DNA of 64,000 nt from an uncultured Candidatus Poseidoniales archaeon (GTDB lineage: Archaea > Thermoplasmatota > Poseidoniia > Poseidoniales > Thalassarchaeaceae), in contig CABXDN010000003.1 in NCBI GenBank assembly GCA_902511005.1, positions 62,001 to 126,000 on the forward strand, read 5' to 3'. The position numbers were made by a program, and so were the translations under genes. Shown piece by piece: positions 4,803-36,758 of the stretch. Numbering within the stretch: position 1 is the stretch's first letter; each line of letters starts with the position of its first letter. The notes under the pieces are model-generated. The model had not been told where the DNA came from. It searched no databases and was given only the letters and a program-made list of their open reading frames with translations.

Positions 4803-4887
4803 TGGTGCAGAGGACAGGATTTGAACCTGCGAAGCACTACGCACTGGGACCTCATCCCAGCCCCTTTGACCACTCGGGTACCTCTGC
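4803..4887 (-). tRNA. tRNA-Leu (anticodon GAG), CCA encoded
   Basis: Reverse strand GCAGAGG...CCTCTGC acceptor; CTGGG-ATGAGGT-CCCAG anticodon arm; long variable arm (type II); GCAGG-TTCAAAT-CCTGT T arm; ACCA tail. Confidence 0.93.
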
Positions 4888-26101: not shown

Positions 26102-26569
26102 TCATCTTTGAATTCTTACACTTTCAAGAATCTCGGACAACCTTTTATTGACTTCTTTTAATTCAAATCTGATGTTTTGTTTAACATTACGGTGCACAAT
26201 ATCTTCAAGTTGCCTGTCTAGGCTACTCAAGATTGCCCTATGTTCGGAATCACTAATCTCAAAAACACGTCTCAAATAGGCAATCATTCTAAGTTCATCA
26301 TCCGTTTTATTAGTATTAATCAGAAAAGTTTCGAGAACTTGTTCATATGCCGAAATCTGTTCACTAATCGTCAAAGGATGCCCTTCTTCCAAAATTCTTT
26401 CTTCTAAAATTGCATCATAGATCATTTTTGGCTCATCATCATCCAATCTCAAAGCCATAGCCAATTTTGTAATCAATCTCTTCTCTCCAAAACTCAAGTT
26501 TCCATCATGAAGGGCTAGACTAACAACTCCTCTAAACACTGCTCGCCTATCGGAGGAAGGCTCAACCAT
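26102..26569 (-). CDS. Hypothetical protein, possibly TerB-like helical fold
   Basis: HDGNLSFGEKRLITKLAMALRLDDDEPKMIYDAIL is reminiscent of TerB-like domains; weak. Confidence 0.6.
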   Translation of the reverse strand: MVEPSSDRRAVFRGVVSLALHDGNLSFGEKRLITKLAMALRLDDDEPKMIYDAILEERILEEGHPLTISEQISAYEQVLETFLINTNKTDDELRMIAYLRRVFEISDSEHRAILSSLDRQLEDIVHRNVKQNIRFELKEVNKRLSEILESVRIQR

Positions 26570-26664
26570 GTGCTTCGTTGATGGCCCTATGACTTAATCT
26601 CTATCCTTGTTTACGTACGAGTCATATTCGAGGTAATAAAACCTCTAAAGTAGATTTGAATCAA

Positions 26665-26790
26665 TAGGAGGCTTCATGAAGGGCCTAACCGCCCGTTAAG
26701 CTTGGTAATCAGCCACACTCGCGGGCGTTTCGCGCCCATCCAACCCAAACGCCAACAAGGCAAAAGGGAGTGAAGCCCCCTAGTTGGGCC
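26665..26790 (+). ncRNA. Candidate structured RNA / 5' leader of dnaG with H-type pseudoknot
   Basis: Pairings read directly: 26665-26676/26771-26782 (12 positions, one A-C mismatch); 26682-26689/26783-26790 (8 bp, one wobble), order A-B-A'-B'; 26690-26695/26722-26727 (6 bp CGCCCG/CGGGCG); 26751-26753/26759-26761. About 59% GC by hand count in an AT-rich region. Confidence 0.55.
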
Positions 26791-26811
26791 GAAAACCGGA
26801 AAGGAATTAAT

Positions 26812-27981
26812 ATGTCAGCAACAGAAGGAAAATATATCATACACGCAACAATACGTTGTGACGGTACAGTCGCCAGAAAAGACGTCGTAGGAGCCATTTT
26901 TGGCCAAACCGAGGGTCTTCTTGGAGACCAGTTACAACTAAGAAAACTACAACGCACAGGTCGTATAGGCCATGTCGACGTAACGCTAAACCAGAATAAA
27001 GGAAAGGTACAAGGAGAAATATCTCTATCGTCTTCAATTGATCAAGTGAGCACCGCAGTTATCGGTGCCGCTCTGGAAACAATTGATCGAATAGGGCCTT
27101 GTAAAGCAGTAATCAAGGTAAAAGGAATTGAAAATATCCGATCTGCTAAGAGAGACAATGTAATCGACCGCGCTAAAACTTTACTTTTGAACATGGTCAA
27201 TTCTGGCCAAGACGATTCTAAGAACATCTTAGATGAGGTTAGAGCAGTCTTGACATTAGATACTGAAAAGGATATTTCTGGCATGACCGCAGGACCAAAT
27301 GTTGCAGATAGTGATGCAATAATTATTGTAGAAGGAAGAAATGATGTTAGAAACTTACTGAAGTTTGGAATCAAAAATGCAATTGCAACAATGGGTTCAG
27401 GGATTCAAGATGAGTTAGTAACTCTAGCGAAGTCAAAAACCACAGTAATAGCATTCGTAGACGGTGATCGAGGAGGCCGTCTTTTACTAATGGAACTCAG
27501 TGGCAAATTAGGAAAATCTTTGACTCATGTGGCTCTTGCTCCTCAGAGTAGAGAAGTTGAACATCTTGAAGGTAAAGTAATCACGAAATGTTTGAGTCAG
27601 AAAGAAGCGGCTAACAAAATAGTATCTCGTCTTCAAGCAGAATTAGCTAAAGAAGATGATGCTGCTGTTGGAAGAGGCGCAGAATCATTAGAGGCTCCTG
27701 ACGAAGTGAAAGAATGGGCAGGGATGTTAGACGGATTAAAGCGTAATCAAGCAATAATTGTTAACGCTGATGGTTCAGGAAGTGAACCAATTGGCGCATC
27801 AAAACTTGAAGAGGAATTATCCGAATCTGAGGGTGCAATAGGTTTAGTATTCTCAGGAAAAGTTAATGATAGAATTTTCGATTTAGCATCAGGTGCTGGA
27901 ATTGAAAACGTAATGGGCACATCTGTTGGAAAGGTAACTAGAAAATCAGGTGTACAGGCTTATTCTGCCTCTAATCTTTGA
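26812..27981 (+). CDS. dnaG: Archaeal DnaG-like primase (TOPRIM)
   Basis: KYIIHATIRCDGTVARKDVVGAIFGQTEGLLGDQLQLRKLQRTGRIGHVDV; TOPRIM IIVEGRNDVRNLLKFGIKNAIA and FVDGDRGGRLLLMEL. ATG at 26812. Confidence 0.95.
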   Translation: MSATEGKYIIHATIRCDGTVARKDVVGAIFGQTEGLLGDQLQLRKLQRTGRIGHVDVTLNQNKGKVQGEISLSSSIDQVSTAVIGAALETIDRIGPCKAVIKVKGIENIRSAKRDNVIDRAKTLLLNMVNSGQDDSKNILDEVRAVLTLDTEKDISGMTAGPNVADSDAIIIVEGRNDVRNLLKFGIKNAIATMGSGIQDELVTLAKSKTTVIAFVDGDRGGRLLLMELSGKLGKSLTHVALAPQSREVEHLEGKVITKCLSQKEAANKIVSRLQAELAKEDDAAVGRGAESLEAPDEVKEWAGMLDGLKRNQAIIVNADGSGSEPIGASKLEEELSESEGAIGLVFSGKVNDRIFDLASGAGIENVMGTSVGKVTRKSGVQAYSASNL

Positions 27982-36684: not shown

Positions 36685-36758
36685 GCATGGGTGGCAGAGT
36701 AGCTATGCAGCGGACTGCAAATCCGCGGACCTGGGTGCAAATCCCGGCCTGTGCTCCA
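36685..36758 (+). tRNA. tRNA-Cys (anticodon GCA), CCA encoded
   Basis: GCATGGG/CCTGTGC acceptor (two wobbles); GCGGA-CTGCAAA-TCCGC anticodon arm; CTGGG-TGCAAAT-CCCGG T arm; TCCA tail. Confidence 0.92.

Follow-up and report, generated by a model that had tools for sequence, protein, structure and literature searches.

A conserved, structured leader RNA predicted directly upstream of dnaG in marine Thalassarchaeaceae

Cis-regulatory RNAs of archaea are few, with only a handful confirmed or even predicted (PMC7247131). Among the closest described systems, the autogenous leaders of ribosomal-protein genes (archaeal S15, eL15 and L4; PMC7247131) are structured 5' leaders on genes of RNA-binding proteins, with covarying helices near the gene start, and the crcB and flpD RNA motifs of archaea (Weinberg 2010, PMC2864571) are conserved structured RNAs identified by comparative genomics. 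The leader described here resembles both, but it belongs to a different gene, dnaG, and has no Rfam match, and in comparison with the ribosomal-protein leaders its protein binding is putative. Translational riboswitches whose P1 lies beside the ribosome-binding site have in common with it a closing P1, conserved junction bases and a competing hairpin (here P6), whereas the present leader has a single target gene, a structure that changes fast between genera and a ligand that is only hypothetical. The text of PMC2864571 mentions neither dnaG nor primase, and our literature search found no paper on an RNA element preceding dnaG in archaea.

The stretch analysed, hereafter the window, comprises 64,000 nt from an uncultured Candidatus Poseidoniales archaeon. 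We label its family, Thalassarchaeaceae, f1 and the genera of that family g1 to g11, with the window in g1; f2 denotes the sister family. The gene presumed to be controlled, dnaG (26812..27981, + strand), is an ORF encoding an archaeal DnaG of 389 aa, with protein matches in 265 of 293 genomes of the order, and its product is 98–88% identical to the closest named records (Candidatus Poseidoniales/Thalassarchaeaceae, Marine Group II), which come from single-cell and metagenome genomes. The original prediction had placed a non-coding RNA of about 59% GC between AT-rich flanks at 26665–26790, 21 nt before the dnaG ATG. Composition and placement were borne out: GC content is 58.7%, against 38.9% for the whole window and 36.8% for 26570–26664, no conserved coding was found, and the ATG at 26812 lies 21 nt past 26790. 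The fold of this stretch is more stable than dinucleotide shuffles (z = -3.2), and the upstream ORF (26102–26569, - strand) is divergent from it. An N-terminally extended DnaG, which had been named as a reading that would undo the proposal, was rejected: the in-frame extension from GTG 26770 is open in the window and meets TAG in relatives, for example in L006 (GTG AAG CCC CTC TAG). The expectation that the element falls outside known RNA families also stood, as Rfam 15 gave no match over it even at E = 10 and the leaders of 39 relatives gave no credible Rfam match. Rfam-recognised RNAs in the window were only tRNA-Leu(GAG) at 4803–4887 (-) and tRNA-Cys(GCA) at 36685–36758 (+).

The element recurs in relatives, beside dnaG wherever both positions were listed. 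A DNA search located it before dnaG in all 13 searched genomes of the window's genus and in three other genera, and a covariance model, R2, matched 92 of 283 genomes of the order, these genome-wide counts being based on searches of genomes. Matches occurred once per genome, except in three bins (G225, G271 and G282) with two matches each, which also carry two dnaG copies. Every R2 match that was compared with a listed dnaG position lay directly upstream of dnaG; for a few weak matches (e.g. G023 and G280) no listed position was available for comparison. With the search tools applied to the genomes of the order, no element was found on a gene other than dnaG. The genera g3, g5 and g8 and the sister family f2 carry diverged forms that gave weak matches, mostly in the correct place and orientation, and the number and form of hairpins vary strongly between genera. 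In the f2 genus g15, the leader end reads UGUCC/GGACA, UGUUC/GAACA or UAUCC/GGAUA adjoining AAGGAG or AGGAG; this predicted P1 thus lies at the ribosome-binding site and covaries independently. Two placements are noted separately: a g9-type leader (L102, G225:C35) sits in a g7 bin holding two dnaG copies and is likely a mis-binned contig, and a Poseidoniales-type dnaG (L212, PATJ01000002.1) occurs in a record titled Acidimicrobiaceae bacterium, likely also mis-binned.

With the location of DnaG in 293 genomes of the order as a guide, leaders were taken from most genera. Model R1, a covariance model trained on 16 sequences, was used to align 85 leaders from seven genera (alignment A3), in which 89.3% of cells were paired, compared with 36–47% when the partners were slid, and 21 of 27 pairs showed double changes, that is, changes on both sides. 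Since the covariance model had shaped A3, we ran the test again on a MAFFT alignment made from sequence alone and against a phylogeny-controlled null of 150–200 replicate alignments evolved on the tree. Summed covariation was 634 on the model alignment against a null of 15 ± 61, with 0 of 200 replicates reaching the observed value, and 424 on the MAFFT alignment against 2 ± 62; the canonical fraction was 0.89 and 0.84, respectively, against approximately 0.52 under the null. P1, P3 and P4 were each supported on both alignments; on the model alignment, P5 and P5b were as well. The changes mostly follow clades, and for this reason no pair taken singly was clearly significant after tree correction (best E 0.07), and pooled tests were used. 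Unbiased scanning of every possible 4-bp helix in the model alignment yielded P4, P1, P3, P6 and P2; on the MAFFT alignment it gave two additional, weaker overlapping helices, which the scan of the model alignment did not yield. G-U cells numbered 149 and A-C cells 49, where composition alone expects 216 and 131, and this lesser depletion of G-U favours the + strand as that of the RNA. The compensatory changes and the conservation that the original prediction called for in relatives were both found.

The supported fold, first obtained by RNAalifold on the first alignment, is nested and consists of closing helix P1, P2, P3, hairpin P4 and hairpin P5/P5b (84 distinct sequences, seven genera; all on the + strand). 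P1 joins 26703..26710 to 26791..26798 through pairs 26703–26706/26795–26798 and 26709–26710/26791–26792, with double changes in 6/6 pairs and covariation at p = 0.007 on both alignments. Its 3' strand adjoins the purine tract GGAAAGGA (26798..26805), the likely dnaG ribosome-binding site, where relatives have AAGGAG or GGAGG; in the forms read, P1 lies 0–5 nt from this site or overlaps it by up to two bases. P2 pairs GCCACAC (26712..26718), which includes a conserved CACUCG running on into P3, with 26783..26789 through 26712–26714/26787–26789 and 26717–26718/26783–26784; it is well paired (canonical 0.88–0.91 against 0.54–0.56 under the null), with weak covariation (p 0.02–0.23). P3 pairs UCGC (26719..26722) with 26770..26773, with covariation at p = 0.007. 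Hairpin P4, GGGCGUUUCGCGCCC (26723..26737; stem 26723–26728/26732–26737), is 98% canonical and covaries strongly (C-G/U-A, G-C/A-U), and is followed directly by an invariant AU at 26738–26739. P5 and its inner hairpin P5b (26744..26768) pair 26744–26746/26766–26768 and 26751–26753/26759–26761, respectively, with compensatory changes from CCC/GGG to CUG/CAG and CCG/CGG in P5 and from GCC/GGC to ACC/GGU in P5b; the latter is the small GCC-AACAA-GGC hairpin of the original prediction, which is thus real. The near-invariant unpaired or junction bases are ACUC and the AU at 26738–26739. A long alternative helix between the P4 loop and 26770–26776, preferred by energy in some species, was rejected, showing no covariation (p 0.85–0.92). 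Comparative evidence indicates that the dnaG leader is a real, conserved, structured and apparently undescribed RNA, whose fold differs from the one first proposed.

An alternative hairpin, P6 (26775..26789, +; stem 26775–26778/26786–26789), is also supported, with canonical pairing of 0.87–0.89 and covariation at p = 0.013–0.026, and it is largely missing in genus g6. P6 and P2 compete for one 3' strand, 26786–26789. Depending on the species, the P2 and P6 states differ in energy by +4 to -16 kcal/mol, P2 being favoured by 0 to 16 in most species and P6 in some. This competition fits a possible switch but does not prove one.

Further upstream lies the 5' conserved segment TAGGAGGCTTCATGAAGG (consensus AGnnUUCAUnAAGG; 26665..26682, +), in which columns 26669–26670 and 26673–26676 are 98–100% conserved. 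The segment is unique in the genome at ≤1 mismatch, and its conservation is unexplained by pairing. An AT-rich peak lies approximately 22 nt upstream, by which the segment is probably at or near the transcript start. The AGnnUUCAUnAAGG form is conserved across the order and appears in f2 as TTCAAGAAGG or TTCAAAAGG. We dismissed a general promoter or operator function for this AGnnUUCA segment, there being only one match in the genome.

The explanation that we favour, and hold to be reasonably likely as a whole, is a folded dnaG leader in which the state of P1 controls ribosome loading. The leader probably has a regulatory role, setting the amount of DnaG. The dnaG mRNA would start with a leader of approximately 140 nt, whose last ~96 nt (26703–26798) would form the conserved nested structure, with P1, P2 and P3 stacked and carrying the hairpins P4 and P5/P5b. 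Since P1 terminates at the dnaG ribosome-binding site, loading would depend on the state of this helix: with P1 and P2 formed and held by a ligand, loading would be blocked or weakened, and when P6 takes the P2 3' strand, P1 would lose its support and the ribosome-binding site would open.

A leader found only on its own gene, the product of which binds RNA, is the usual pattern of autogenous control. The structured RNA found here lies directly upstream of, and is restricted to, the gene of one RNA-binding protein. This single-gene use, together with RNA binding by DnaG, makes autogenous control the leading hypothesis, followed by a small-molecule riboswitch. By analogy with ribosomal-protein leaders, the foremost candidate ligand, proposed tentatively, would be DnaG itself, acting directly or within the exosome. 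The known preference of DnaG is for poly(A) and not for a structured site, which counts against it as the ligand. DnaG has an RNA-binding N-terminal domain whose conservation extends to all archaea, including those that lack an exosome (PMC4227792). Sulfolobus iCLIP places clusters of exosome crosslinks near RNA 5' ends, and the available part of that report does not mention dnaG autoregulation (PMC7667871).

A metabolite or ion riboswitch, in which a small molecule (e.g. a nucleotide) binds the junction bearing the conserved CACUCG and AU and P1/P2 versus P6 gates the ribosome, would account for the strongly conserved unpaired and junction bases (ACUC, AU 26738–26739), for a P1 adjoining the ribosome-binding site and for a supported competing hairpin. 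We regard it as unlikely, in that riboswitches usually, though not obligatorily, control several genes of one pathway, while dnaG is the sole carrier here, once per dnaG copy, and such strong variation from one genus to the next, hairpin number and form included, would be unusual in a small-molecule pocket. Less probable again is a passive structured 5' leader, which would stabilise the mRNA or keep the ribosome-binding site free and sense nothing: the overall layout is indeed kept better than most of the sequence, and helices are re-invented between genera, but stability would not require unpaired bases that are nearly invariant or a unique 5' segment.

The original prediction had offered either a cis-regulatory leader or a stand-alone ncRNA; a conserved, structured, non-coding leader directly upstream of dnaG is the alternative that stands. 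A stand-alone, trans-acting RNA whose gene lies before dnaG by chance would suit a compact, well-folded molecule, yet it is very improbable, as the element abuts dnaG wherever both were placed, occurs once per dnaG and nowhere else, and its P1 adjoins or overlaps the ribosome-binding site.

The coaxial A-B-A'-B' pseudoknot of the original prediction fares still worse as the functional fold. Its arms are present in the window as described: A pairs TAGGAGGCTTCA with TGAAGCCCCCTA with one A-C mismatch, and B pairs GGCCTAAC with GTTGGGCC, although one U-G pair is needed. An arm like A arose in just 3/200 shuffles, an arm like B in 128/200, and within g1 stems A, B and the internal CGCCCG/CGGGCG stem (C) are paired in 76–79% of cases, 78–79% being the range that speaks for the pseudoknot. 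Against this, pairing in other genera is near null (mostly 29–66%, with C at 82% in g7), none of the three stems covaries under the tree-based null (p 0.39–0.83), none was returned by the unbiased helix scan, and A and B have 3' arms that belong to P3, P6 and P2. Whereas the partner of the A 5' strand varies, that strand itself is highly conserved in all genera, so pairing does not explain its conservation. At the family level, the aligned leaders already contradict the pseudoknot, and we give it almost no credence. Least credible is a leader-peptide device in which AGGAGG-UUC-AUG opens an upstream ORF of 7–10 codons whose translation controls P1, because, although this mini-ORF (26676–26699, overlapping the leader; MKGLTAR in the window, MKGxTxxxxW with a Trp-stop end in relatives) mostly keeps its frame and TGG TAA end in the window's genus, many g6/g7 sequences (TTCATCAA) and g4 (TTCAAAGG) have lost the ATG but retain the element, and in g10 the frame continues without a stop, which largely refutes it as a general mechanism.

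We also considered the wider range of the leader. Eight aligned genomes of f16, a family in the same phylum, share a GGGAAAAAUGGUCAU/AUGACUAUUUUUCCC-type helix that closes immediately ahead of the ribosome-binding site. The dnaG leaders of other Thermoplasmatota may be homologous to the element of Marine Group II. UCAC repeats numbered 126 in the 100 dnaG leaders counted, against 49 expected by shuffles (~2.6-fold), with no enrichment in f13, f18 and f20 over the stretch counted. Other Thermoplasmatota dnaG leaders (L181, L182 and L216–L221 of f16; L184; L222–L232) look structured, with long closing helices beside the ribosome-binding site, and a CU(A/G)UUUUUCC box recurs in them along with UCAC repeats. 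Thermoplasmatota dnaG leaders may be one ancient leader, a reading that draws on the UCAC enrichment and on the structured leader, with a helix next to the ribosome-binding site, of Marine Group II families and f16. The fuller version, in which a dnaG leader RNA in the Thermoplasmatota ancestor was rebuilt many times and lets the DnaG/exosome system gauge and adjust its own level, is speculative and, in our judgement, doubtful.

Taken together, these results describe a comparatively supported RNA element in very abundant, uncultivated ocean archaea and provide a precise, testable case for RNA-based control in archaea. The gene product belongs to the RNA-degrading exosome, and a feedback loop in the exosome is possible; if the ancient-leader reading is true, the element would be the first known autoregulatory RNA tied to the archaeal exosome.
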